Positions 1,203-46,957 of a stretch of 46,957 nt of DNA are shown piece by piece. Numbering within the stretch: the first letter of the stretch is position 1; every line of letters starts with the position of its first letter. A model generated the notes under the pieces. The model did no database searches. It was not told the origin of the DNA and saw only the letters and a program-made list of their open reading frames with translations. This DNA comes from a virus: positions 1 through 46,957 of the IMG/VR virus record IMGVR_UViG_3300032315_002372; one strand, 5' to 3'. Both the position numbers and the translations under genes were made by a program.

Positions 1203-2228
1203 TTACCTGATTTGGGAATCTGTCCAACCTCGTAACTTCAGCCCGACCCGAAGCTTTTCCGGGTCGGGATAGAACTCTCGCTTGCTTGGGAGTGTGATGT
1301 CGTCGCGAAGACTTTGCTTGAACCAATCCCATCCGACATCCCGAGAAAGGCGCTTGAGTTCTTCAAGCCTCGATTGGTTGATCAGCACCTTGTAGGTAGG
1401 CCCGACGCCAATCAGCCCCTTATCGAAGGCGACGTGGTGAATGACGGTTAGACAAAGGCCATTCGACAACGAGTCGGTGCCATCCTTGTGCTCAACCGGG
1501 ACTATGTGGGCCGCCTCGATCATGTCGATGTCGTACCCGCTGATAGCGCACCGACGCTGGTAGGCCCCAATGACGTTGGTCCTGAATCTGGCGTCCCGCA
1601 CCTTTCTCTGAAGTTCAACGAGCTTCACCTTTCTCGGACCCTCCGGGATGTCCTTGATCGGGGCCTCGATGTCCTGGCCTACGATTTCTTTGACCACGGG
1701 AGCATCTCCGCCAGCCTCCGGCGTGTTGTGCAAAGTGGCCCACTCAGCAAGATAGGCAGATAGATAGTCGGGCCGGATTGCGACGACGGTTTCTGCATAC
1801 TGGTTTTGCGCATAAGCAAGTCCTGACGATTGAGCCTGTATCAGCGCGGTTTGGGGAACCTGCATGGAAGGCGAACTCCGATGAGCGAAGTCAGTGTCCG
1901 CGTGTCTCGAGTATTCCCAGGCGGCGAAGACTTCGTAGGTGGGACTCCACCCGAAGATGAACGTCGTCGCCCCAGGCACATTTAGAAACCTGCCGGGGAC
2001 TCCCGTGATTTGGATCCGCTGCTCGTGGGCGGGGCGATGCTGTCCGCCGCCGTGAGTGATCTGCCAGATGTAGAACAAGGCCTTCAACCTTCGCTCGCCG
2101 AACGAGAAGCTAATCAGTACCGGATGTTCACGATTGAGGACAATTGCGGTGCCTCCGCAAAGTCGGGCGGAGGCAACAATTTGATCAACGAGCTTGGACT
2201 TTTGCGGGCTCAGCGTCATTCCGCTCAC
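1203..2228 (-). CDS. HNH-type restriction endonuclease
   Basis: 341 residues. The C-terminal third contains an HNH_2-type nuclease: RRCAISGYDIDMIEAAHIVP, then a conserved D, NGLCL, IHH and AFDKG, with the His in AAHI as the probable general base. The N-terminal two thirds are unrecognised and probably recognise DNA. Start GTG at 2228 shares one base with the TAG stop of the methyltransferase upstream (TAGTG), so the two are translationally coupled; an in-frame ATG lies at 2219. Partner and context make it the cleaving half of a type II restriction-modification system at the attL edge of the prophage. Likely role: protection of the lysogen against other phages. The cut site cannot be read from sequence. 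Confidence 0.8.
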   Translation of the reverse strand: MSGMTLSPQKSKLVDQIVASARLCGGTAIVLNREHPVLISFSFGERRLKALFYIWQITHGGGQHRPAHEQRIQITGVPGRFLNVPGATTFIFGWSPTYEVFAAWEYSRHADTDFAHRSSPSMQVPQTALIQAQSSGLAYAQNQYAETVVAIRPDYLSAYLAEWATLHNTPEAGGDAPVVKEIVGQDIEAPIKDIPEGPRKVKLVELQRKVRDARFRTNVIGAYQRRCAISGYDIDMIEAAHIVPVEHKDGTDSLSNGLCLTVIHHVAFDKGLIGVGPTYKVLINQSRLEELKRLSRDVGWDWFKQSLRDDITLPSKREFYPDPEKLRVGLKLRGWTDSQIR

Positions 2229-3250
2229 TATTTCGCCTTTCTCTTTCTGCCTCCGTCAGTCGGAAGTTTCTCGCCGTCATGCCCGTTCCAAAGGGCTCCA
2301 GGATGGCGGATTTGGTAGGTGGTCTCCTTGAGGGATGGCTGCGTCAACTCCCCAACCCCCTCGCCTGCAAATCGGCCCTTCGCCCCTTGGAGATAATCTT
2401 CCCTCAATTCGCAGCACGTCCACCGGCGCTTCAGTCGTTCGCATACCTCTCCTGTGACGCACGAGCCACCAAAAGGATCGACGACATAGTCACCTTCGTC
2501 GGTGAGCATTCGGATGAAGAACTCGGGCAGTGCGGCAGGGAAACGCGCAGGGTGCGGGTTGATCTGATTCTCGACGCAATATCGCAGGTAGGACGAGTTG
2601 CTCTCCGTATGCGCAATCGCGATGAGATTTGGTGGAATCGAAGCTCCGTTGTTCACGGAGAAATTGGCGCTGATGTCGTGTCCAGAAGGTCTCATCTTCG
2701 CCTTGTAGCCGTTCTTCAACAAGGACTGCATTGCGTCGCTGTAAGGGGTGAGGACCCGGCGATTCGATGCCTTCGGCCAAGGCGTCTTGCTGAGCCACCA
2801 CACACAATTCACCGCGTCCTTAACGCGAATCCTCCTGACGGTGACCCACTCAGCAGGGGTTGGAAGCCGGGCTGGGTTCCACCAGAAGAACTCTTGGGCA
2901 AGATGGAATCCGAACTCACGACACAACATGATCAGGAGTTCGTAGTGGTAGAGGCTGCGCGTTGGCTGGCCAGGAATCCACGCCCCTCCGATGTCGATTA
3001 CAAGGGAACCGGATGGCTTGATTACCCGTGCAAGTTCTGCTCCGAACTCCCGAAACCAGTCCACGTACTTGTCGGCGTCGACGTTCCCGTAGTCCTTCTT
3101 TCTGACGAGTCCGAAAGGAGGGCTCGTCATCACAAGATCGACCGAGGAGGAGTCGGTCTGGTCGCGGAGGAAGCCAAGGGAATCCCCAAGAACGGCCCTT
3201 CCGAGAGCGGTTTCGACGAAGTGTTTCTGCTGCTTCGATGACGGAGGCAT
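2228..3250 (-). CDS. DNA methyltransferase (beta-class, N4-cytosine/N6-adenine)
   Basis: 340 residues. The catalytic motif IV TSPPF is near the N-terminus (42-46) and the SAM-binding motif I DPFGGS near the C-terminus (258-263), an order that defines beta-class amino-methyltransferases. A conserved NPHPARFP segment (231-238) precedes motif I. TSPP more often marks N4-cytosine enzymes, but N6-adenine cannot be excluded. It is the modification half of the system and is translated first, so protection can precede cleavage. An inverted repeat 21-47 bp upstream of the start may regulate the pair. Confidence 0.88.
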   Translation of the reverse strand: MPPSSKQQKHFVETALGRAVLGDSLGFLRDQTDSSSVDLVMTSPPFGLVRKKDYGNVDADKYVDWFREFGAELARVIKPSGSLVIDIGGAWIPGQPTRSLYHYELLIMLCREFGFHLAQEFFWWNPARLPTPAEWVTVRRIRVKDAVNCVWWLSKTPWPKASNRRVLTPYSDAMQSLLKNGYKAKMRPSGHDISANFSVNNGASIPPNLIAIAHTESNSSYLRYCVENQINPHPARFPAALPEFFIRMLTDEGDYVVDPFGGSCVTGEVCERLKRRWTCCELREDYLQGAKGRFAGEGVGELTQPSLKETTYQIRHPGALWNGHDGEKLPTDGGRKRKAK

Positions 3251-28148: not shown

Positions 28149-29147
28149 TCAGAGTTGGGCGTTGGGGAACCGGGCCTCGAACTTCTCGGCCATTGCGAGG
28201 GCGGCTTTGCGGTACTGGCGAAATTCAGAGTGGAGGCTGCCGAACAGGCCGAGCGCGCAGTTGTGCGTCGGGGTCCGGCGGCTCCAGCCCATCACCTTCC
28301 ACAGCCGCTCGACTGCTTCGCGCGAGTTGGCGAGGCGGACGATCTTTTCGGAGCGGAAGAACGGGGGGACTTCCTTGGAGGCGACAACCTTGCGGCAAAG
28401 TCCGAAGGCGGTGGCCAGGTGGTGCATCAGCTTTGCCTCGCTGAGGGTTCCGGCAAACGCCCGGAACTCGACTGCTTCCCTGCGGTTCGGAGCGAAGGCC
28501 TTTCGGAAATTCACCATGCCCCGGCCGGTCATGTCGCAGAGGTTCACCAGCTCAACGCCGTCGGTCACTTCGAGCATCCGCTCGAAAGTCGCCTTCGATT
28601 CCGGGGTGAGCGGGTGGGAGTAGGCGTTCAGGTGACGGTCAGTGCCGGTCTGGGCGTAGATCGCCCAGCGGTGATTGTTCGCGAACCGGGCGAGGCGGCG
28701 GACGAACTTCGCGATGTCGGTCGAGGCAACCGGCTTTCCCGGCATCAGGCTCCGGATACCGATCGTGATGTGGCAGCCGCAGGAATCGTTCACCTTCGCG
28801 CCGATCTGGTTCAGGAACCGGACGAAGTTCACGAGGGCGTTCAGGCCTTCGACACCCTTCAGGACGGGAGAAATGAACTCGGCGGCCATGTAACCGTCAT
28901 CGGCCCGGATGGATCTGTCCCGCTCAGCCTTCCAAGGGGCCCCGCGGAAGGTGGGGGGGGTGACCATTTCGCCGGAGGCGATGCCAGAGAGGACGGACAG
29001 TCCGGAGTGGTAAGGCCCGGGGCGGATGCCGGCGGTGACCGGAACCATCGTTTCGAGTTCGACCCCGAACTCGATGTTTTCGGCTAGGAAGTCGGAGGGC
29101 ATTTTTGCGTTCTTCATGGTCTTGGAGGCGTTGTGTCTGTTGCTCAC
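28149..29147 (-). CDS. Amidoligase (glutamine-synthetase-fold COOH-NH2 ligase)
   Basis: 332 residues. It matches the Amidoligase_2 pattern: FGVELET near the N-terminus (Mg/ATP-binding Glu pair), a later D-RSIRADD, AAEFISPVLKG (acidic ATP-site residue), then GAKVNDSCGCHITIG (conserved His) and EFRAFAGTL. These ligases use ATP to join a carboxylate to an amine. The GTG start (29147) has GAGG five bases upstream; ATG 29117 is an alternative without a ribosome site. With the class II amidotransferase downstream and an AAA+ ATPase upstream it probably forms a small modification pathway. Substrate unknown: peptide, cell-wall precursor or protein. Confidence 0.8.
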   Translation of the reverse strand: MSNRHNASKTMKNAKMPSDFLAENIEFGVELETMVPVTAGIRPGPYHSGLSVLSGIASGEMVTPPTFRGAPWKAERDRSIRADDGYMAAEFISPVLKGVEGLNALVNFVRFLNQIGAKVNDSCGCHITIGIRSLMPGKPVASTDIAKFVRRLARFANNHRWAIYAQTGTDRHLNAYSHPLTPESKATFERMLEVTDGVELVNLCDMTGRGMVNFRKAFAPNRREAVEFRAFAGTLSEAKLMHHLATAFGLCRKVVASKEVPPFFRSEKIVRLANSREAVERLWKVMGWSRRTPTHNCALGLFGSLHSEFRQYRKAALAMAEKFEARFPNAQL

Positions 29148-29217
29148 TACACCTCGTCGCGTGCGCTATTAGCTCACTCCAGACAAATCAAAATCCGGGG
29201 CTGATTTCAGATTTTTC

Positions 29218-29272
29218 CGAGCGTCTGCCGCTCGTCAGAATACGGGCAGCCATGGCCCCGAGGGACCATGGC
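29218..29272. other. Two hairpins between the AAA+ ATPase and the amidoligase
   Basis: The 135-nt gap holds CGAGCG-n5-CGCTCG (29218-29234) and GCCATGG-n10-CCATGGC (29249-29272). Neither is followed by a U-tract on the transcribed strand. They may partly uncouple the amidoligase from upstream genes or stabilise mRNA ends. Confidence 0.35.
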
Positions 29273-29282
29273 CAGCCCATTC

Positions 29283-30221
29283 TCAGTTGGCATGAAGGTC
29301 CAGATCGGGGGTCCCGCCCCGGCCATGGGAACGTTGGGTGTCCTGGACAGCGACAATCTCCGCGCGAAGGTGCGCGTCCCGGATGATCCACCGGGCGGGA
29401 TCCGGGTCCATGCTCGCGGCATAGATCGCGTTCAGGCACACGTTTCGGATGTCGCCTCCCGACAATCCCCTCGACGCCATGGCCAGCGTGCGGAGGTCGG
29501 CTGCGACCCGGTCCCCGCTCGGCAAATGGAGCCGGAACAGGGCCTCCCGTTGCTGCCAGTCCGGCAACCGGAATTCAACGTGGCGGGTGATCCTCCGAAG
29601 CATCGCGGGGTCGTAGTTTTGGAAGAGGTTTGTCGTCAGGACGACGACCCCGTTGAAGCGGTCCAGCTCGGCCATCAGCGTGTTCCGGTTCTGGTTGATG
29701 CTGGAGGAGCACGATTCCCCGGCCGGCACCCGTTTGCTCACGAGGCTGTCCGCCTCGTCGAGGAACAGAACGGCACCCTCTTCGGCAGCTTCGTCGAAGG
29801 CGCGGACGATGTGCTTGGCGGTGTCGCCAAGGAATTTCGAGACGACGGCCGAATAGTCGACCCGGAACAGCGGGCGGTTCAGTCGCCGGGCGATCGCACC
29901 TGCGGTCATGGTCTTCCCGGTCCCCGGAGGGCCGTAGAAATTCAGGACACACCGGCCCGCGTTCGGCTCGATCCGGGACAGGCCCCATACCGCTTCGAGC
30001 TGGTCCGCCACGAGGAACCGGTGGAGGGCGATTTCGACACTCTGCCGGATCTCGTTCGACAGGATCATCCGGTCAAGATCGTGACGCTCATCGGGTGACT
30101 CAAGGGTGCCGACCTCGGTCGCGGCACCATTCCGGCGTCCCCGTCGGGGATTGCGATGGGCTTCCTGTTCAGCCTCACGGCGAGGTAGTTCTACTTCTTC
30201 GTTTTCGTTTTCGTTGGGCAT
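29283..30221 (-). CDS. AAA+ ATPase
   Basis: 312 residues. Walker A GPPGTGKT (97-104), Walker B VLFLDEAD (151-158), sensor-1 TTN (196-198) and an arginine-finger region MLRRITRH (208-214) define an AAA+ ATPase of the classical (CDC48/FtsH-like) clade. The N-terminal 45 residues are highly charged and disordered-looking, likely a substrate- or partner-binding tail. There is no protease or other C-terminal effector domain. Neighbouring genes (amidoligase, amidotransferase, RadC/JAB-like protein) suggest that it remodels a modified protein or complex. The ATG lies 22 bases after a short leader ORF in repeat copy A. Confidence 0.85.
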   Translation of the reverse strand: MPNENENEEVELPRREAEQEAHRNPRRGRRNGAATEVGTLESPDERHDLDRMILSNEIRQSVEIALHRFLVADQLEAVWGLSRIEPNAGRCVLNFYGPPGTGKTMTAGAIARRLNRPLFRVDYSAVVSKFLGDTAKHIVRAFDEAAEEGAVLFLDEADSLVSKRVPAGESCSSSINQNRNTLMAELDRFNGVVVLTTNLFQNYDPAMLRRITRHVEFRLPDWQQREALFRLHLPSGDRVAADLRTLAMASRGLSGGDIRNVCLNAIYAASMDPDPARWIIRDAHLRAEIVAVQDTQRSHGRGGTPDLDLHAN

Positions 30222-30240: not shown

Positions 30241-30318
30241 GTTCAGGCCACACGCGAGCAGCCAACTGCGGAACCCTCAAAACCAAATCCTTCACTGAGG
30301 TTCATTTTGTTTCCTCAG
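30241..30318 (-). repeat. Start-associated repeat, copy A
   Basis: About 75 bp, upstream of the AAA+ gene. It shares with copies B-D the blocks CTGAGGAAACAAAATGAACC, GAAGGATTTGGTTTTGAGGG and GGCTGCTCGCGTGTGG (transcribed strand). This copy has lost one base in the last block (GGCC in place of GGGCAT), which turns the conserved ATG into TGA, so its open frame closes as a separate leader peptide. Confidence 0.8.
30243..30305 (-). CDS. 20-residue leader peptide ORF (repeat copy A)
   Basis: ATG 30305 overlaps the TGA of the zinc-ribbon gene and has GAGGA as ribosome site. It encodes MNLSEGFGFEG and continues to CSRVA, then stops 21 bases before the AAA+ start. The same frame is open in repeat copies B, C and D, where it runs on into the next gene. 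Whether the peptide matters, or only the translation of the leader, is unknown. Confidence 0.4.
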   Translation of the reverse strand: MNLSEGFGFEGSAVGCSRVA

Positions 30319-31241: not shown

Positions 31242-31700
31242 TCAGGCGTGGAAAGAGGGGCGTGGGCGGACGGTGGACAGGGGCGCTGGGACGAAGTGCA
31301 TGTCGAGCTCGACGCCAATGTTGAGCGCACCGCGCAAGGAGGCGAGCTCTCGAATGTTGATGTACCCGACCTCAGCGAAGTCGCCGCAGACAAGGCCGAA
31401 GGCCAGGTCCGCGCCATCCCATTCCGTGATGTACCAAGTCCAGGATCCGGCGGGGTCGAAGAACTTCACGTAAACGGTGGCCTCATCTCCGGACTGGGAA
31501 TCGAGTCCCGTCACGCCGGAGAGGCGAAGGCATTCCTGGAACTGGGCCAGCTTCCGCGGGCCAGGGCCGACGCCGTTCTGGTACGTGGAGCCGAGACCGG
31601 GCTTCCGGTCGTCGAGGAGGGTGCAGAGCGATTTGTTCATGCCCACACGCGAGCAGCCACCTGCGGCACCCTCAAAACCAAATCCTTCACTTGGGTTCAT
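31242..31700 (-). CDS. DUF2958 protein
   Basis: The DUF2958 core is clear: VYVKFFDPAGSWTWYITEWDG, then FGLVCGDFAEVGYINIRELASLRG and LDMHFVP at the end. The domain is common in plasmids and phages near anti-restriction-type genes; its function is unknown. The ATG at 31700 has a strong ribosome site (TGAGGA) and adds the repeat-encoded N-terminus (MNPSEGFGFEG and onwards). The ATG at 31640 (MNKSLCTLL) starts where the family normally does but lacks a good ribosome site. I cannot decide between them. Confidence 0.8.
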   Translation of the reverse strand: MNPSEGFGFEGAAGGCSRVGMNKSLCTLLDDRKPGLGSTYQNGVGPGPRKLAQFQECLRLSGVTGLDSQSGDEATVYVKFFDPAGSWTWYITEWDGADLAFGLVCGDFAEVGYINIRELASLRGALNIGVELDMHFVPAPLSTVRPRPSFHA

Positions 31701-31713
31701 TTTTGTTCCTCAG
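31636..31713 (-). repeat. Start-associated repeat, copy B
   Basis: Second copy, spanning the stop of the 31710 gene, the ribosome site GAGGA, ATG 31700, the conserved 20 codons and the inner ATG 31640 of DUF2958. Compared with copy C, the 20-codon part differs at three positions, two of them synonymous (CCA/CCC, GGC/GGG; the third is GGA/AGA). Confidence 0.8.
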
Positions 31714-32060
31714 CACTGGAAGTCTTCGGTGACAACTCCCTTGGCCGTGAGCGTATAGATTGGGAAGGCTCCAACTCTCGCTGCATTGAGGCGGGCAACT
31801 GCGGAGACTGGATCCACGCCCGGCTTCAATGTAGTCCGGTAGAACTTCTGCTTCCCGCCGAAGGGGTGCCGGATTGTCTTGAACAGCTTGTCGCTTTCGA
31901 CAACCGCTTCAATGGCTTCCCAAAGGTACTCTCTTCTCTGCGGTGCTACGTTCGGTGAGACAGCCCCGACCGACTTGATTTCTGTTGGCTTCGTTTTCAT
32001 GCCCACACGCGAGCACCCACCTGCGGCACCCTCAAAACCAAATCTTTCACTGGGGTTCAT
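31710..32060 (-). CDS. Hypothetical protein with repeat-encoded N-terminus
   Basis: 116 residues from ATG 32060 (ribosome site GAGGA), or 96 residues from ATG 32000 (MKTKPTEIKSVG). The body has an amphipathic helix (RREYLWEAIEAVVESDKLFKTI) and a beta-rich C-terminus (KFYRTTLKPGVD ... FPIYTLTAKGVV). No family recognised. It shares the start-associated repeat with DUF2958 and RadC, so the three may be co-regulated. Confidence 0.6.
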   Translation of the reverse strand: MNPSERFGFEGAAGGCSRVGMKTKPTEIKSVGAVSPNVAPQRREYLWEAIEAVVESDKLFKTIRHPFGGKQKFYRTTLKPGVDPVSAVARLNAARVGAFPIYTLTAKGVVTEDFQC

Positions 32061-32073
32061 TTTGTTTCCTCAG
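31996..32073 (-). repeat. Start-associated repeat, copy C
   Basis: Third copy, between the RadC-like gene (its TGA at 32070 is part of the TGAGGA ribosome site) and the hypothetical gene at 31710. It is the closest match to copy B, in the same spacing and frame. Confidence 0.8.
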
Positions 32074-32579
32074 TTGATGATGCCAATTTCCCGTAGGCTG
32101 ACCCATCCGCGGAGGTTCTCGGGCCCCGGTCGGCCCATGATCAGGTGATCGAGGATTTCGAGCCGCAACACTTGGCCAGCCCTCACCAGGTCGCGGGTCA
32201 CTCTCACGTCGGCTTCGCTCGGGGTTGGGTTCCCGCTGGGGTGGTTATGGATTAGAACGATGCCATGGGCGTTGGCCATGATGGCGGCCCGGAAGACCTC
32301 TCTGGGGTGGACATGCACAGCATCGAGCAACCCAATCGAGACGAGGGAATGCCCAACAACATGCCTCTTGGTCGACAGCATCAGGACGTGGAAATGCTCC
32401 TGCCCTTCCCGGAACAGAGGATCCGACCCGATGTGGGTCTGCCAGTAGGCGGCGGTGGATTCCGGGGTCGAGCAGGTTATACGTTCGGTAGTGGGTGCTG
32501 GCGTCTCGCAGAGCACGAGACTTTCGGACCGGACAATGACTTCGCGGATTCTCCTGCGGGCGACTTTCAACGTCTTCAT
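32070..32579 (-). CDS. RadC-like JAB-domain protein
   Basis: 169 residues from ATG 32579. The JAB metallo-motif is intact: HNHPSG (His111, His113) with Asp124 ten residues on, and an upstream conserved Glu in HPREVFRAAI. The RadC family segment LIHNHPSGNPTPSEAD is textbook. RadC-type proteins are common on mobile elements; proposed roles include DNA repair and peptidase action, none settled. Longer in-frame starts (GTG 32639, ATG 32657) would add the repeat-encoded peptide. Confidence 0.85.
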   Translation of the reverse strand: MKTLKVARRRIREVIVRSESLVLCETPAPTTERITCSTPESTAAYWQTHIGSDPLFREGQEHFHVLMLSTKRHVVGHSLVSIGLLDAVHVHPREVFRAAIMANAHGIVLIHNHPSGNPTPSEADVRVTRDLVRAGQVLRLEILDHLIMGRPGPENLRGWVSLREIGIIN

Positions 32580-32645
32580 GCCCGCACGCGAGCAGTCACC
32601 CTCGGCAGGCCAAAAACCAAATCTTTCACCCCTGTTCACTTTGTG
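32575..32645 (-). repeat. Start-associated repeat, copy D (diverged)
   Basis: Fourth copy, in front of the RadC-like gene. It keeps GAAAGATTTGGTTTTT and TGCTCGCGTGCGGGCATG, but the ribosome site is degenerate (CTCGGGTCACAAA) and the first codon is GTG. The frame remains open into the inner ATG 32579. Confidence 0.7.
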
Positions 32646-32660
32646 ACCCGAGGCCACAAC

Positions 32661-33437
32661 TCACCAAGGCATGTGAAGCGTCACCTTCGTGATTCCCGCA
32701 TAGTCCGCCTTTCGAAGGCCGCGGGTCGAGTTCACCTTCAGGACGCCGCCGTTCGCCACCAGTCCCCACTTCCGGACGAGGATCTTGAGGTCGTTGTCCT
32801 CGGTCTCTGAGTTCCGCAAGCCGGCCTGTCCGCCTGGGGAAGTGAACGTGTCGCCGAACATCAGGCAGTAGCGGTCGTTGCGGAAACACCGTCGGTGCCG
32901 GTAAGCGTTCAGCGCCGACAGGTCGTAGTCCATCTTCCCGACCAGGCGTTCGTCGTTCCGCAGGTTGTGTCCCCGGAGGAATCCCTGAGTGGCACCGAGC
33001 ACGAACCCGGACAGCGCGAACGGCTTCAACCCGGTGTAGAATCGGATGCCGGTCTGGTTCGGAGCGAACCCGAACAGGTAGCACCCGGCGTCAGCCGCCA
33101 TGCGGGCGGTGCCGTCGATGATCTCGTGGACGAGATCCGGATCCTCGACCTTGGCCTTCTCGCCGAGGTTGGTGAAGCACCGGGCCATGTAGAGGACGTC
33201 ATCGTCCATCACCATGAAGGCCGGCTCACCCTCCATCTGCCGGTACATCCAGTTGAGCTTTGGGGCGAGCCCGCGGACGCTGTCGGGGTGCGGGAGCAGG
33301 CTGCTCCGGGGCACCGTCTGGGCGTACTCCTCCACCTGGCTCTCCGGGATGCACACCAGGCACTCCCGCAGCATCCGGTGGGTTGTGATCGTTTTCGCCC
33401 GCGACATCGAGGGCACGACGATTTTGACGTAGGGCAT
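32661..33437 (-). CDS. TET-associated-type glycosyltransferase (GT-A-like)
   Basis: 258 residues from ATG 33437. The N-terminus VKIVVPSMSRAKTITTHRML, a segment resembling LVCIPESQVEEYAQ, and the metal-binding triad in MVMDDDVLYM (Asp78-80) follow the pattern of phage TET-associated glycosyltransferases, a family proposed to glycosylate modified bases in phage DNA. No TET/JBP dioxygenase or hydroxymethylase is visible in the window, so the acceptor could instead be protein or surface glycan. The first 212 bases overlap the ParB-like gene in another frame. Confidence 0.6.
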   Translation of the reverse strand: MPYVKIVVPSMSRAKTITTHRMLRECLVCIPESQVEEYAQTVPRSSLLPHPDSVRGLAPKLNWMYRQMEGEPAFMVMDDDVLYMARCFTNLGEKAKVEDPDLVHEIIDGTARMAADAGCYLFGFAPNQTGIRFYTGLKPFALSGFVLGATQGFLRGHNLRNDERLVGKMDYDLSALNAYRHRRCFRNDRYCLMFGDTFTSPGGQAGLRNSETEDNDLKILVRKWGLVANGGVLKVNSTRGLRKADYAGITKVTLHMPW

Positions 33438-34029
33438 GGAGGAACCTTTTGAACGGGACACACCGGCCGACGCCCACACCGGTTTTCTTGTAGGACTTCT
33501 CGATCTGGACGCCGGAGATCGTTTGGAGGAAGAGGAAGTCGGTCTCGTTGTCCACGAACACGAGGACGTAGTCGTGAGTCTCGCCGAGCTTCGGGGTCAT
33601 CGGGTACTCGGGAGGGGGCGCTGCAGCTGCCTCTTCTTCTTCAGACAGGATGCCGGCCAAGGTTCGGTCGAGGCCCGCGTCGTCGAGCTGCTTCAGGAGG
33701 TCCTTGAGCATCTGACCGTCCTCGTCCGCCAGCTCGGCAATGTGGTTGTCTGCGAGGAGATGGGCCAACTCGTCGGCCTCGGTGGCGAAGTCCTGGACAT
33801 CACACGGCACCTCGGTGAACCCGAGCTTCAAGGCAGCCTCGCGCCGGGCGTGACCCGCCACGATGAAGCCGGACAGGCTCGAAACCACGATGGGTGCACG
33901 CCACCCTTGGTGTTCCAAGATCCGGGACAGCATTTCGATCTGTTCCGGGGGATGCCGGTTCGGGTTCTTGGGGTGCGGTCGCAGGTCGGGGACCGGCACC
34001 ATCTGGGTGAAGGCGCAGTGAATTTTCAT
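33226..34029 (-). CDS. ParB/Srx-fold domain protein
   Basis: 267 residues. N-terminal ParB-like domain: VPDLRPHPKNPNRHPPEQI (7-25), APIVVSSLSGFIVAGHARREAA (GHARREA is the conserved C-R/G-x-R-type box) and LADNHIAEL. Residues 155-195 (DYVLVFVDNETDFLFL ... KTGVGVGRCVPF) are a C-terminal module seen with ParB-like phage proteins. From about residue 198 the frame overlaps the glycosyltransferase gene and becomes proline-, arginine- and glycine-rich, probably a non-functional overrun after loss of the original stop. ParB-fold proteins in phages act in DNA binding, cutting or CTP/ATP-dependent modification. Confidence 0.75.
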   Translation of the reverse strand: MKIHCAFTQMVPVPDLRPHPKNPNRHPPEQIEMLSRILEHQGWRAPIVVSSLSGFIVAGHARREAALKLGFTEVPCDVQDFATEADELAHLLADNHIAELADEDGQMLKDLLKQLDDAGLDRTLAGILSEEEEAAAAPPPEYPMTPKLGETHDYVLVFVDNETDFLFLQTISGVQIEKSYKKTGVGVGRCVPFKRFLHALRQNRRALDVAGENDHNPPDAAGVPGVHPGEPGGGVRPDGAPEQPAPAPRQRPRARPKAQLDVPADGG

Positions 34030-34089: not shown

Positions 34090-34584
34090 TCATCGGCGCA
34101 GAAGACTCCTTCCATCATCAACAGGCGCAGCGCAGCGAGCGTTTGCGCGGCCATCCCCGGCGCTGGGAGCGGCCTTCCTGCTCGTTTGATCCGTCCGGGG
34201 TGGCAGGATAGGCCTGAAGACGATCCAGCGGAAGAGAGCGAAGTTCCACGCGATGCCGACGGCCATGGCCGCGAGCTTCGCGAGGTTCGCAGGTCCGACG
34301 GCGACAGCGCCGACGAGCTCGACCGCCGCGGCGAGAACACCGACCTGTACTCCGTACGCGCCAACGATCGTCACCAGGCCGAAGCGCAACGCCTGGCTCG
34401 ATGGCTGGCCGCTCGCTCGGAAGGCCCGACGCTGGCCGATGAAGGACAGAGGGAGGATGATCGAGGTTGAGGCAGCGTGCGCAGGTCCAACACCAATGCC
34501 CAGCGACAGGCCCCAGTTGAACAGGGCGATGTCGAGGGCGGTGGTAAGCGTGCCGACCAGGGCGAAGCGAACGAGGGTGTTCAC
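34090..34584 (-). CDS. gtrA: GtrA-family flippase
   Basis: 164 residues with four predicted transmembrane helices: FALVGTLTTALDIALFN, AASTSIILPLSFIGQRRAF, FGLVTIVGAYGVQVGVL, and LAKLAAMAVGIAWNFALFRW with the family ending WNFALxRxxVF. GtrA proteins move undecaprenyl-phosphate-linked sugars across the membrane in phage serotype-conversion loci. It is translationally coupled (ATGA) to the glycosyltransferase fusion upstream. The C-terminal 35 residues are basic and unusual. Infer lysogenic conversion of surface glycan. Confidence 0.85.
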   Translation of the reverse strand: MNTLVRFALVGTLTTALDIALFNWGLSLGIGVGPAHAASTSIILPLSFIGQRRAFRASGQPSSQALRFGLVTIVGAYGVQVGVLAAAVELVGAVAVGPANLAKLAAMAVGIAWNFALFRWIVFRPILPPRTDQTSRKAAPSAGDGRANARCAAPVDDGRSLLRR

Positions 34585-36320
34585 AGGCCGAGCAGCTTGA
34601 GAACGGTGGGCCGGGGCGGTTCAGGAAAGATCGGGACCGTGGGCAGGGCAAGGAGCGAGGCTTGCCCACGTTGGGCAATCAGTACGTAGCCGTTGGTAGA
34701 TACGTAGCGGGACTGCTCGCCCGTGAGAACCAGCATCTCGGGATGCAGCCGTTCGATGACGTTCGACTGGGCTCGATAGTTGAAGCCCCTCCAGACCCTC
34801 TTGAAGGGGACGATCATCAGGGCAGGATCCGGAGCAACACCGGTGGAGAGGTACACCTGTGGAATGGTCGAGTAGAGCGTCGCAGGTTTCGCCTTCCGGA
34901 TCATCGGGACGAAGTCGGCTGCATAGACATCCCACGGGTCCGTAGAGCTGCGGCTTCGATTGATGTGGAAACCCACAAGGACGAGCGAGGCAATACAGGT
35001 GAGTACGATCATCCAGCGGGAGCGGATGCCCCACACAGCCAAGGCCGCGCCCGGAATCCAGAAGTGCAGATGGTAGTAGCCCCAAGCGGGCTGGTGGACG
35101 CTGAGAACTACGACAGCGAAAGCGAGGCTGCCGACCCAAAGGCCGAAGCCCCGCCGCCCAAGTCCGATGATGGCGAGCGCGCCGATGAGCCCAGCGGAGG
35201 CAGCCTGCCAAGCCTCCCAGACGATCGGCCCTGGCGGCCGGGCGGTGTGCGAATCAAGGAATGCAGTCCAGTTGTGCCCAGGGGGCAAGAAACAGAGGCC
35301 GAGGAAGGTTCCGGCAGCGGAAGCCCCGAGGATCGAAGCGGGGACGGCTCCGGATTGAGCGGCGAGCACTGCGACAGGGACCAAACCGAAGGCAGCAGTG
35401 AACTTGAGCTGAAGAGCCAGAGCGGCGATTGAGCCGCTGAGAACGAGCTTCCAAGTCTTTCGATCTCCGAGGAGGAGCGGAATAGAGGCGAGTGAAGCGA
35501 GACCAACGGCGGGCCCCTCCATAGTCATCGAGGTGAGCAACTCGAAGGCTCCGACTTGGGCGAACACGAGGAGGGAGAAGACGGCGGTGAGGTGAGCGAG
35601 CCCGTGCCTGCGAAGCATGAGTCCGACGACGAGCGGAATTGGGACGGTGAGTGCGAAGGTGATCGAGCGCAGGACGTGAATCTCGCCGCTTCCGTTGGAG
35701 AAGAGGGAAACAATCTGAGTGAAGATCCAGCCTTGGTCGTTCCACGCCTGGGATGCTGCGGACGGATTGAACCGAAGGAGGGCGAGCTTCGACGCTTCGA
35801 GAGCCTCGTCGCCCCCGATGGCCTTGCCGACGTTCAGGTAGATGGAGGCGGACCCGAGCAGGATCCACGCAAAAACACCAATTCCGACCCCGACCTTGCC
35901 ATCCGGGGCCTTCGTCTCGGGGGCCGTGGGGGAATGTTCAAAGCGGGTGAGCCACGCGAGGGTCAGGAGGAGCAGGAGGGTCAGCCCATCAGCGTGAAGC
36001 TCGATCCACGGAAACCAGTCAAGCAGTCGGCCGAGGCATTTGCACGGCTCTTTGATGTCCGCGTAAATGCGTACGGAATGGTAGAGGGAGAGTCCGACGA
36101 GGAAGCTTCGGAGTGCGATGATGGGAACTGACCCGGGCCGGAGAAGGATGAAAGCCAGAGCGAGTTCAACAATCGCAGCCAACGCGGCAACGGCCCAGTT
36201 CTGGACCTGAAGAACCTGGTTGTAGTCTGAGAGCCATTTCGAACCGTGGAAAAGGCCGATAATCTTCAGGAGGGCGGTCGCTGCCAAGAGTCCGGCAGCG
36301 ACCGCTCGGGATGCGCTCAT
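34581..36320 (-). CDS. Fusion of MauE/DoxX-like redox domain with GT-C glycosyltransferase
   Basis: 579 residues, about 13 membrane segments. Residues 1-125 form a four-helix MauE/DoxX-like domain with the cysteine motif CKCLG (93-97) after a helix ending HSVRIYADIKEP; in MauE proteins this motif is tied to disulfide formation in exported partners. From about 150 onwards it is a GT39/ArnT-like GT-C transferase: DEALEA (Asp171-Glu172, the catalytic DE motif), WNDQGW (193-198), many helices and a soluble C-terminal domain ending in LKLLGL. Likely substrate: a polyprenyl-phosphate sugar supplied through GtrA. The fusion is unusual. Confidence 0.7.
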   Translation of the reverse strand: MSASRAVAAGLLAATALLKIIGLFHGSKWLSDYNQVLQVQNWAVAALAAIVELALAFILLRPGSVPIIALRSFLVGLSLYHSVRIYADIKEPCKCLGRLLDWFPWIELHADGLTLLLLLTLAWLTRFEHSPTAPETKAPDGKVGVGIGVFAWILLGSASIYLNVGKAIGGDEALEASKLALLRFNPSAASQAWNDQGWIFTQIVSLFSNGSGEIHVLRSITFALTVPIPLVVGLMLRRHGLAHLTAVFSLLVFAQVGAFELLTSMTMEGPAVGLASLASIPLLLGDRKTWKLVLSGSIAALALQLKFTAAFGLVPVAVLAAQSGAVPASILGASAAGTFLGLCFLPPGHNWTAFLDSHTARPPGPIVWEAWQAASAGLIGALAIIGLGRRGFGLWVGSLAFAVVVLSVHQPAWGYYHLHFWIPGAALAVWGIRSRWMIVLTCIASLVLVGFHINRSRSSTDPWDVYAADFVPMIRKAKPATLYSTIPQVYLSTGVAPDPALMIVPFKRVWRGFNYRAQSNVIERLHPEMLVLTGEQSRYVSTNGYVLIAQRGQASLLALPTVPIFPEPPRPTVLKLLGL

Positions 36321-36375
36321 GCAGGTTCAGTTTGGAGTTAGCACGAAGGGCCAGAGGCGGCCGCTGGGGATGTGC

Positions 36376-36738
36376 CTATGAACACGCCGCGCCGAAGACG
36401 GACGACTCCTGGAACATAAATCGCTCGTAGGAGACATCGGGGTCCCCGCTGCAATCGATGTAGACGCAAGTGTAATTGCACTGGGCCATGTAGTAGGTGA
36501 CCCCGACCTGCCCGGTAGTTTGACCGCAAACCCTGCGAACGAAGCTGTCAGGGGAGGTGCAGCTTCCAAACACTTGCACTCCACCGCAGTAGAGAATCAC
36601 AATGCTCTCGTTAGGGCAGTTGACGACCGTGTTCTTGCAGCAGGATGCGGCTTGCGCCTGCGGAGTCATCAGGACAAGGGCGATGGCAGCGATGACCAAG
36701 CTGCTGATGGCGGACTTGAGTTTTCGAAGGAACTTCAT
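36376..36738 (-). CDS. Cysteine-rich exported protein
   Basis: 120 residues from ATG 36738. A signal peptide (MKFLRKLKSAISSLVIAA to about residue 31, cleavage after AQA) leads to a mature part of about 89 residues with ten cysteines (including a CC pair near the start), enough for five disulfides, and aromatic, Gly- and Thr-rich loops. It lies directly upstream of the MauE-domain fusion, which suggests that its folding depends on the CKCLG redox domain. No family recognised. It may be a surface-displayed target or an exclusion factor. Confidence 0.7.
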   Translation of the reverse strand: MKFLRKLKSAISSLVIAAIALVLMTPQAQAASCCKNTVVNCPNESIVILYCGGVQVFGSCTSPDSFVRRVCGQTTGQVGVTYYMAQCNYTCVYIDCSGDPDVSYERFMFQESSVFGAACS

Positions 36739-36752
36739 TGGTTGAGTAGACT

Positions 36753-37676
36753 TCACCGTTTTTTGAACCAGATCGCGGCGGTGATGACCGCGGCCAGGCC
36801 AACCACGACAAACCAAAACGATCGGGACTCAAACACCGCAGAACCTTCGGCAATAGCCGGAGGAGCCTTCGGTTGAACCTGAATCTCGCCGTCTGGGCCG
36901 ATCACTTGAGCGACCCGGTTGCTGTAGAAGAATGTGAATTCGCGACCGCCCTCATGGAGGAGTGACGGCGTGTAGCCGTCGGAGTCCTTGAACTCTCGCG
37001 AGCCGAACCGGAGGTCGGAGATGCGGATTGTTTTCGGGCTCCGCTTGCCGTCGTTCGAGATCTCGATCGCGATGGGGAACCCGTTCGTGTCGTGGGAGAC
37101 GAAGTTAAACACCCTCTTGTGAGTGCCGTAGTCGTTCTTCCAGTTGGTGACAACCCGCATCGGGATGCCCTGGGAAACCTCGATCTGACCGCTGACGGGA
37201 CCGGATGCAGTCATGGAAGCGGAGCCCTGGCCGTGGAACTCCAATCCGTCCCACTTCAATCCGTTCGTCTCTGCGGAGTGAACGCCGAATCGGGTCACAA
37301 AGTGCAGCATGCCGAGGTCACCTTGACATCGTCCTTCGGGTCCAACTCCGGTGACACTCCCCATGGGAATGAGAGGGCGGGTGTCCTTGATGGGCAAGAC
37401 GTGGACGGAGTTTCCTCCAAATGCCCATGTCATCGAATAGGATTGGCCCGAACTCATCGCAGAATCGCGGGGGCCTTGCGGATTGCGGACGTACCAAGTG
37501 CCCGGTTGAATCCCAATCTCGTAGATCTGGTTCGTCCCGGAATTCGAGACGGTAAAGGTCCCTTCCAGAGGCTGGTTCAGCGAGATCATCCGCTTGATCC
37601 GTTCAACCGATTCGCTTTCGGCTGAGAGGCATCCAAACGACAGGATGAGGCAGAGTGTGGCGGCTTTAAGGTTCAT
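36753..37676 (-). CDS. Exported protein with C-terminal membrane anchor
   Basis: 307 residues from ATG 37676. N-terminal signal (MNLKAATLCLILSFGCLSA), a beta-rich body (TFTVSNSGTNQIYEIGI; SHDTNGFPIAIEISND) and a C-terminal transmembrane helix with a basic end (FWFVVVGLAAVITAAIWFKKR). The N-in, C-anchored exported layout fits a cell-surface protein of verrucomicrobial type. No enzyme motif seen. It shares its strand and neighbourhood with the cysteine-rich protein and the glycosyltransferase fusion, so the four genes (34090-37676) look like one cargo cassette. Confidence 0.65.
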   Translation of the reverse strand: MNLKAATLCLILSFGCLSAESESVERIKRMISLNQPLEGTFTVSNSGTNQIYEIGIQPGTWYVRNPQGPRDSAMSSGQSYSMTWAFGGNSVHVLPIKDTRPLIPMGSVTGVGPEGRCQGDLGMLHFVTRFGVHSAETNGLKWDGLEFHGQGSASMTASGPVSGQIEVSQGIPMRVVTNWKNDYGTHKRVFNFVSHDTNGFPIAIEISNDGKRSPKTIRISDLRFGSREFKDSDGYTPSLLHEGGREFTFFYSNRVAQVIGPDGEIQVQPKAPPAIAEGSAVFESRSFWFVVVGLAAVITAAIWFKKR

Positions 37677-37708: not shown

Positions 37709-38146
37709 TCAAGGGCTTGGGGTCGAGCCCCTCCTCGGTTTCCTGTTCCAGGCGTGAGACTGAGCCCGGTTGGAGATGCCGAAGACCTTGGACACCTTCG
37801 ATGACGACAGGGAGAGCACTGCCTTGTTCGTGCCGATCTGCTTCGCTAGGGAAGAGAGAGACGGAGATCCCTCTATGATGCTCGGGTCAATCACCCAGGC
37901 GAGGGCGATCACTCGACGCCCGGCGCGGCGATCATCGGGGTTCAGTCTGCCGCCCTCACCGGCCAATACCCAGACCAAGATCGAGCGCAAAGCTTGGCCA
38001 AGGCGCTCGATGTCGTCCTCGGCTAGAGCCCCGGGTTCTCCAAGTGCTCGGCTCAATCCGTCCCAATCGAACTCGCAGACTTTGCCGTCCAAGGGATCGA
38101 GATCGTGGTTACTCTCGCCAGAATCTAGGTCTTTATGGCCAGTCAT
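37709..38146 (-). CDS. Hypothetical protein with helix-turn-helix-like C-terminus
   Basis: 145 residues. The N-terminal half is acidic. The C-terminal half (about 90-135: SPSLSSLAKQIGTNKAVLSL, then SKVFGISNRAQSH) reads like a helix-turn-helix. It starts at ATG 38146 overlapping the stop of the HTH gene upstream. It is the last gene of the replication block before the surface cassette and may regulate either. Confidence 0.55.
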   Translation of the reverse strand: MTGHKDLDSGESNHDLDPLDGKVCEFDWDGLSRALGEPGALAEDDIERLGQALRSILVWVLAGEGGRLNPDDRRAGRRVIALAWVIDPSIIEGSPSLSSLAKQIGTNKAVLSLSSSKVSKVFGISNRAQSHAWNRKPRRGSTPSP

Positions 38147-44714: not shown

Positions 44715-44786
44715 TGGTAGCGGGCCGCGGAGTCGAACCGCGCTGGCTCGGCTTATGAGGCCGTGCAGGTCCCCGACCTGCCCGCA
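44715..44786 (-). tRNA. tRNA-Met-like (anticodon CAT), short D arm
   Basis: 72 nt folding as a tRNA: acceptor TGCGGGC/GCCCGCT (first pair T-T mismatched, as initiator tRNAs have an unpaired 1-72), anticodon stem CGGC with loop CTCATAA and GCCG (anticodon CAT), T arm CGCGG-TTCGACT-CCGCG, discriminator A and encoded CCA. The D arm is unusual: AGGT-CGGGG-ACCT with a 5-nt loop and A instead of U at position 8. It could serve as initiator or elongator tRNA-Met, as a lysidine-modified tRNA-Ile, or be a mimic. It lies between the excisionase and recombination genes. Confidence 0.7.
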
Positions 44787-45769: not shown

Positions 45770-46957
45770 TCACACTGGAGGAGAAACCTCGAACCAAGCC
45801 TCAGCGGTTTCCTTGGTGGCGATGGCTCGGTAGTGGGCGAAGACCATTCCGGGGGTGTTTCCCATCTCGAGCGCGACCCGTTGCTCGTTTTGCAGGATTG
45901 CCATTCGGTAGGTTCCGAAGGAGTGGCGTAGGCCGTTCCGCTTCCAGGTCACTTTGGCGGTCTTCGCAACCAGTTTGATCTGGTTCTCGATCGTGGCGAA
46001 CGAGGCGATTGGTCCAGAGGCCTGCCGGTATGGGCGGAGCGTCTCGGCAAGGACCGGGAGCAAGGGGGCGAGCCGCCTCTGTCGCGTCTTCGACTTGGCT
46101 GCCTTCACGTCGATGTGGTCGTCGTGGATCTCCGACCAATCGAGCCTGCTGGCCTCCGCACTCCGGAGTCCGGCGTACGCGCACACGGCGAGGTAGGGGA
46201 CCATCTCCGGTCTCGCCGAGCGCAGCAGGGCGTGGAGTTCGTCGGGGGTGAAAACGCCGATCTCTCCAGTATCGCGGGACCGGTCGATCTGGCTCAGATC
46301 AATCAGGCCCCGAGTCAAATACCCGCGCCGCTCGGCGAATCGGATCATGCTCGTCACCGATGCGAGACTGTTGTTCTTGGTGCGGCCCTTCACTTTGAGC
46401 GAGGAGAGCCACCGTTCAACATCAGCCACGCGGATGTCCGATACTGGAACGGAAAACGCGGCGGCAAATTGCTTCAGTCGCCAGGTCAGGTCGTGAAGGT
46501 GGGCTTCGCTCCGACCGGCTGCGGACTTCGCAGCCAGAAACTCCTCCACGACCTGCCGCACCGGCGGGGCCTTGAGGGTGGCGGGGCAAAGCCGGAGGTA
46601 GTCCTGGATTGAGGTGACCAGCGAGGTCGGACCCAGGAGCTTCTTGGCTGCGACGTACTCGATGATTGCGGTATCGACGTCGATCCCGAGCGGCTCGATT
46701 GCTGTCTTGGCCCGGCTGTAGGCCAGCATCTCCTCGCCGGAGAGGGTGAGGGTGGTCGTACCGAGCCGGGCAAGCTCCCTGGCTCGCTTCCGGGCGAAGT
46801 CGGCCGCGTCGTTGAGATTCACGAACGCCTTCCGCTTCCGGTCTGAGCCTTCGTACCAAACGGCAACGAAGGTCTCTCCGGTGCGGGTGGACGTGCGGTA
46901 GATGGGGATCGAGGTGCTGCCCTCGCGTATGGTCTGAATTGGTCCTTTGCGCTTCAT
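45770..46957 (-). CDS. int: Tyrosine recombinase integrase
   Basis: 395 residues. N-terminal arm-binding and SAM-like core-binding domains (about 130-225: VVEEFLAAKSAAGRS ... FAERRGYL) are followed by the catalytic domain with Arg265 (YAGLRSAEASRL), a Lys in KAAKSKTRQRR, Arg344 in the box NGLRHSFGTYR (Asn replaces the usual first His), GNT in place of the H/W position, and nucleophile Tyr376 (AHYRAIA). These substitutions are typical of integrases from Verrucomicrobiota-type hosts. The start codon ends at the window edge, so the att site beyond it is not seen. It should catalyse integration at the tRNA 3' end represented by 866-893. Confidence 0.92.
   Translation of the reverse strand: MKRKGPIQTIREGSTSIPIYRTSTRTGETFVAVWYEGSDRKRKAFVNLNDAADFARKRARELARLGTTTLTLSGEEMLAYSRAKTAIEPLGIDVDTAIIEYVAAKKLLGPTSLVTSIQDYLRLCPATLKAPPVRQVVEEFLAAKSAAGRSEAHLHDLTWRLKQFAAAFSVPVSDIRVADVERWLSSLKVKGRTKNNSLASVTSMIRFAERRGYLTRGLIDLSQIDRSRDTGEIGVFTPDELHALLRSARPEMVPYLAVCAYAGLRSAEASRLDWSEIHDDHIDVKAAKSKTRQRRLAPLLPVLAETLRPYRQASGPIASFATIENQIKLVAKTAKVTWKRNGLRHSFGTYRMAILQNEQRVALEMGNTPGMVFAHYRAIATKETAEAWFEVSPPV

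Follow-up and report, generated by a model that had tools for sequence, protein, structure and literature searches.

Sugars linked to polyprenyl phosphate are flipped by GtrA-type proteins and serve as substrates of GT-C enzymes on the outer face of the membrane. A flippase of this type stands beside a polytopic GT-C-like transferase in the gtr clusters (gtrA-gtrB-gtr(type)) of temperate Shigella and Salmonella phages, where the flippase is conserved and the transferase is variable; for the Shigella phages gtrA and gtrB have been described as conserved and gtr(type) as specific (PMC3259042). MauE (PF07291), a protein of methylamine dehydrogenase maturation, has been speculated to aid disulfide formation and is linked to Cys-rich precursors in Streptomyces, where MauE of the candidate peptide clusters (decRiPPter) is proposed to modify a precursor containing 8 or more Cys (PMC7794033). 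We analyzed a viral sequence of 46,957 nt (IMG/VR record IMGVR_UViG_3300032315_002372; ‘the window’ denotes this whole stretch) and observed a cassette in which relatives of both groups occur together. Judged from sequence comparison, its four-gene set is not a virus invention and is also found on bacterial chromosomes. The set is apparently undescribed so far, and a literature search covering few subscription journals returned no papers on MauE with Verrucomicrobia and glycosyltransferases and none on the gene combination.

Layout of the cassette and its carrier phage

The cassette occupies positions 37676-34090 of the window on the minus strand, in the order anchored protein, ten-Cys protein, fusion and GtrA. 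All four open reading frames claimed in the original prediction were found at their coordinates. The cassette genes and the two genes bordering the insertion site are the following:

37709-38146, minus strand: conserved phage gene, upstream border of the insertion site; its relatives lie near the ParB gene in cassette-free phages
36756-37676, minus strand: exported protein with a C-terminal membrane anchor, 307 aa; alternative TTG start at 37712; no Pfam family
36376-36738, minus strand: small exported Cys-rich protein, 120 aa, ATG at 36738; 10 Cys with C-x-Y-x-C; proposed substrate
34581-36320, minus strand: MauE:GT-C-like fusion, 579 aa; MauE at residues 3-123, GT-C-like part at about residues 140-579 with GGDEALE and WNDQ
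34090-34584, minus strand: GtrA-type flippase of a lipid-linked sugar, 164 aa; PF04138 with E=3.6e-13
33226-34029, minus strand: ParB_N-domain gene, downstream border of the insertion site; PHROG matches; 92% identity in the related phage G001

The genes for the anchored and the Cys-rich protein are separated by about 14 bp and those for the Cys-rich protein and the fusion by about 55 bp, and the fusion and GtrA overlap by 4 bp. From the upstream phage gene through the cassette into the ParB gene the series runs near gapless with no recognisable promoter, and lysogen-specific expression is therefore not indicated. The ParB_N-domain gene is overlapped by a TET-associated-type glycosyltransferase gene (TAGT, PF20691; window 32661-33479), and the two are possibly a DNA base modification pair.

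The virus record contains integrase, terminase, portal and tail genes, by which it is a temperate tailed phage, and the terminase relatives in bacterial genomes are almost all found in Verrucomicrobiota MAGs (two at 97% identity); the window is a phage of this phylum. A second phage, G001 (IMGVR_UViG_3300013132_000134; terminase 97% identical), carries all four cassette genes in the same order and place. In twelve more distant phages and prophages there is no cassette between the relatives of the upstream gene and of ParB. About 3.7 kb separates the border genes in both the window and G001, compared to mostly 0.3-0.7 kb, and 1.7 kb in one case, in the twelve cassette-free relatives. Because both related phages have it and the distant ones lack it between these flanks, the cassette is cargo of a temperate phage at a defined site. 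Scans of viral contigs with individual proteins, and with alignments made for the fusion and the anchored protein, revealed at most the one related phage. The fusion gave no match in annotated phages and plasmids, nor did a chromosomal fusion used as the query against phages.

As in the gtr clusters, the transferase next to GtrA is polytopic and GT-C-like, and the carrier is a temperate phage. The GtrA flippase had been named in the original prediction, and its PF04138 match of 50.2 bits exceeds the curated cut-off of 26.1 bits. However, no gtrB (GT2 polyprenyl-phosphate glucosyltransferase) was found among the window ORFs scanned, the sole glycosyltransferase among the ORFs flanking the cassette being the TAGT-like PF20691 protein, and the integrase gene (45770-46957) is not adjacent to the cassette but about 8 kb away. 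As these two defining features of gtr seroconversion clusters fail, we do not class the cassette among them: of the predicted ‘known core of phage serotype conversion’ the flippase and the GT-C-like transferase are present, whereas gtrB, within the ORFs scanned, and the position beside the integrase gene are not. The cassette further differs in that MauE is fused to the transferase, in the extra Cys-rich and anchored exported proteins, and in that the full set is also chromosomal. A gtr-like modification of surface polysaccharide, in which GtrA and GT-C would add a sugar to a host glycan and the Cys-rich and anchored proteins would be separate cargo, agrees with the pairing of flippase and transferase and with their identities between the two phages (88% for GtrA, 42% for the transferase), as in Shigella phages (PMC3259042). 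Besides the missing gtrB and the distant integrase gene, MauE fused to the transferase and the Cys-rich and anchored genes alongside on chromosomes would be unexpected if only a glycan were modified, and we consider this explanation rather unlikely.

Proteins encoded by the cassette

Scanned whole against Pfam, the 579-aa fusion gave no match. Residues 1-141 alone match MauE (PF07291) with E=1.4e-6 and 29.1 bits, covering residues 3-123 and exceeding the curated cut-off of 27 bits, which supports the MauE-like N-terminus proposed earlier. The domain has four predicted hydrophobic segments and a conserved C-x-C, and a PC-x-CLG motif is kept in the fusions of both phages and in one chromosomal fusion. 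In its segments, its C-x-C and its Cys-rich exported neighbour it resembles the MauE of methylamine dehydrogenase maturation, but it is fused to a glycosyltransferase, and no mau genes or MauD were identified in the cassette. A scan of the cassette and flanking ORFs for Pfam families revealed no MauD/thioredoxin partner beside MauE.

The GT-C half of the fusion has no direct match to any curated Pfam GT-C family. A profile of this half matches a protein of genome G418 (L203:3809-5344) at 5.3e-27, and that protein matches PMT_2 (PF13231) at 8.7e-11; GDE and WNDQ motifs are conserved. The putative transferase half is linked to PMT_2 through this intermediate relative. With the PMT_2/GT39-like GT-C transferases it also shares a DE motif in the first loop, and it differs from them in carrying an N-terminal MauE domain. 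AlphaFold2 models calculated from two-row alignments had a mean pLDDT of 31 for the anchored protein and 35 for the fusion and were unusable.

The Cys-rich protein begins with a signal-like N-terminus and contains exactly ten Cys. In the anchored protein, hydrophobic segments are located at the N-terminus and, towards the C-terminus, at residues 280-299, and the protein ends in a KKR tail. A profile of eight chromosomal-only Cys-rich proteins ranks the Cys-rich protein of the window first of 757 ORFs (E=1e-5) and that of G001 second, the latter weakly (E=0.044), and a profile of seven chromosomal-only anchored proteins retrieves both phage anchored proteins at 1.1e-15. The motif C-x-[YF]-x-C is common to all 10 of the 10 aligned Cys-rich proteins. 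Kept in order in a second phage, and with its small proteins retrieved by chromosomal-only profiles, the four-gene set stands above chance.

The Cys-rich protein is small, exported and diverged (28% identity between the two close phages). These properties would suit a competition cassette with which the phage arms the lysogen, the Cys-rich protein being a secreted, disulfide-bonded and glycosylated antagonist and the anchored protein serving for immunity or tethering; several modules per host genome and the occurrence of MauE near Cys-rich precursors in Streptomyces candidate peptide clusters (PMC7794033) point in the same direction. However, family profile scans returned no toxin match for the cassette proteins, neither a dedicated export ABC transporter nor a protease was identified beside the Cys-rich gene, and the anchored protein is without an assigned function, so that we regard this explanation as distinctly unlikely. 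The likeness to the decRiPPter clusters consists in MauE beside a Cys-rich protein (PMC7794033). In contrast to those clusters, the proteins found here belong to Verrucomicrobiota, carry signal peptides, measure about 75-150 aa and are accompanied by GT-C, GtrA and the anchored protein, and leader-peptide processing was not seen.

Chromosomal modules and proposed function

Within the Verrucomicrobiota genomes searched, full-length MauE:GT-C fusions were observed on no fewer than four chromosomal contigs (G507:C34, G550:C62, G418:C4 and G525:C31). On G507:C34 the anchored, Cys-rich, fusion and GtrA genes follow each other in phage order between clpC and MFS/cinA genes, and the set on G418:C4 adjoins hisG and a D-Ala-D-Ala carboxypeptidase gene. 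The fusions in G550, G418 and G525 each have an anchored-protein gene beside them, and at G550 and G418 there is a Cys-rich gene as well. The fusion had been predicted to be unusual and linked to phages, which these chromosomal copies do not support; at G507:C34 the four genes are located among housekeeping genes, an arrangement of the kind that the original prediction had itself named as counter-evidence.

Unfused MauE and GT-C neighbours were observed at L189, L190 and L073, in the order anchored, Cys-rich, MauE and GT-C. In G550:C115, G551:C22 and G418:C158 GtrA closely follows GT-C, and a GT2 gene is located downstream of the chromosomal GT-C in L073 and L201. GT-C relatives need not act on Cys-rich proteins, since those at L074, L194, L196 and L197 have no detected MauE nearby. 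The fusion profile matches 31 of the 146 genomes of the order, and hosts can have several modules in one genome. Phage and chromosomal fusions cluster together with support (99/96) in a tree built from the GT-C part, the split pair L189/L192 branching outside this group; the topology would fit a single MauE:GT-C fusion event. In this tree the two phage fusions do not nest within the chromosomal ones, and it is the distribution that points to transfer from host to phage. We consider it highly probable that the phage carries a module of host type as its cargo.

A second kind of fusion, in which MauE is joined to a C-anchored exported domain, was found on chromosomes at L107, L108, L109, L111, L112, L113, L114 and L115. 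The view that long chromosomal MauE frames are mainly MauE:GT-C fusions was rejected, as most of those read consist of MauE and a C-anchored exported domain. Several of the loci with this domain adjoin genes for small exported proteins that contain as many as 16 cysteines, and in G505, a single contig of 4.7 Mb, several MauE genes lie within 20 kb.

For the association of MauE with Cys-rich neighbours we considered 32 Verrucomicrobiota loci with phage-like MauE, picked by MauE/GT-C similarity and frame length, partly by hand, the presence of a Cys-rich gene not being a criterion. On these loci, which are not a random sample in that the search profiles included phage sequences, and under a rule for Cys-rich ORFs that was fixed but written after examples had been seen, 20 of 32 have a small exported Cys-rich ORF no more than 1.5 kb away on the same strand, and 1 of 32 has one on the opposite strand. 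Such a neighbour is present at 1 of the 30 strongest general PF07291 loci and in 2 of 134 control segments (Fisher test, 4e-7 and 1e-15, respectively, against 20/32). The pairing of the phage-type MauE with a Cys-rich exported protein, first noted in the original prediction, therefore lies far above the controls. An extension to any MauE gene was rejected on the count among the strongest PF07291 loci.

The two kinds of fusion, MauE with GT-C and MauE with the C-anchored exported domain, tie the parts of the module together, and a MauE:GT-C fusion beside a Cys-rich exported protein suggests that oxidation and glycosylation are coupled. We propose as the most likely explanation that the phage carries a copy of a Verrucomicrobiota chromosomal module for the maturation of a small Sec-exported Cys-rich protein. 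The sequence shows the gene content and order, the MauE and GtrA domains, the relationship of the parts to chromosomal modules, the cargo position and the allele divergence; the whole proposal, substrate and mechanism included, we hold to be about evenly poised between right and wrong. The Cys-rich and the C-anchored protein would be exported, and the MauE domain in the inner membrane would support cysteine oxidation in the Cys-rich protein. GtrA would flip a polyprenyl-phosphate sugar made by a family 2 glycosyltransferase of the host, which would have to supply the donor because gtrB was not found among the window ORFs scanned. The GT-C domain, being one polypeptide with MauE, would transfer the sugar periplasmically, with the Cys-rich or the anchored protein as the most likely acceptor, and display or release of the product would alter the lysogen surface. 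A wider proposal is possible but clearly more tentative: Verrucomicrobiota may possess an undescribed multi-copy system in which one membrane enzyme couples MauE disulfide formation and GT-C sugar transfer on a family of C-x-[YF]-x-C proteins with signal peptides, and of which temperate phages carry exchangeable alleles that reshape the surface or the competitive ability of the lysogen. The module recurs on the chromosomes of a little-studied phylum, and its two gene fusions make the hypothesis of coupled folding and glycosylation directly testable.

Probable exchange of a cassette block

Between the window and G001 the identity at third codon positions is 74-79% for GtrA, ParB and TAGT, compared to 35-42% for the three other cassette genes; at 32%, the phage gene at the upstream border has diverged as well. 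The identity climbs at the first codons of GtrA, and saturation of synonymous sites is seen in the three cassette genes upstream of GtrA but not in GtrA itself. The simplest reading, drawn from this one phage pair, is that the cassette block was probably replaced by recombination and GtrA was retained. Faster protein evolution alone is unlikely to account for the divergence, as the exchanged block is saturated at third positions, unlike GtrA, ParB and TAGT. Most likely, the module would have been picked up by phages and swapped as alleles. In the phage copy the acceptor-side genes would be exchanged as a block and the generic flippase would stay, a pattern also described for seroconversion phages.

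The cassette could also be passenger host DNA, captured by a phage ancestor and having no selected role in the phage, which would agree with the occurrence of this gene set on chromosomes and with its presence in only two phages of the collections scanned. However, the four frames are intact in both phages despite saturated third positions in three of them, which argues that they are maintained, and the cassette genes are packed into the phage operon; we consider a passenger origin of this kind very improbable.

Apart from the cassette, several further features of the phage were observed. A tRNA-Met gene (window 44715-44786, minus strand) lies about 1 kb from the integrase gene. A 78-base direct repeat occurs in four copies (window 30241-30318, 31636-31713, 31996-32073 and 32575-32652), which are 74-94% identical to the reference copy, each lying at the start of a phage gene or between two consecutive ones; the repeat is also found in G001. 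A putative amidoligase (PF12224) is encoded beside an AAA ATPase (window 28149-30221), and an MTaX1-HNH protein adjoins an N6/N4 DNA methylase (window 1203-3250).
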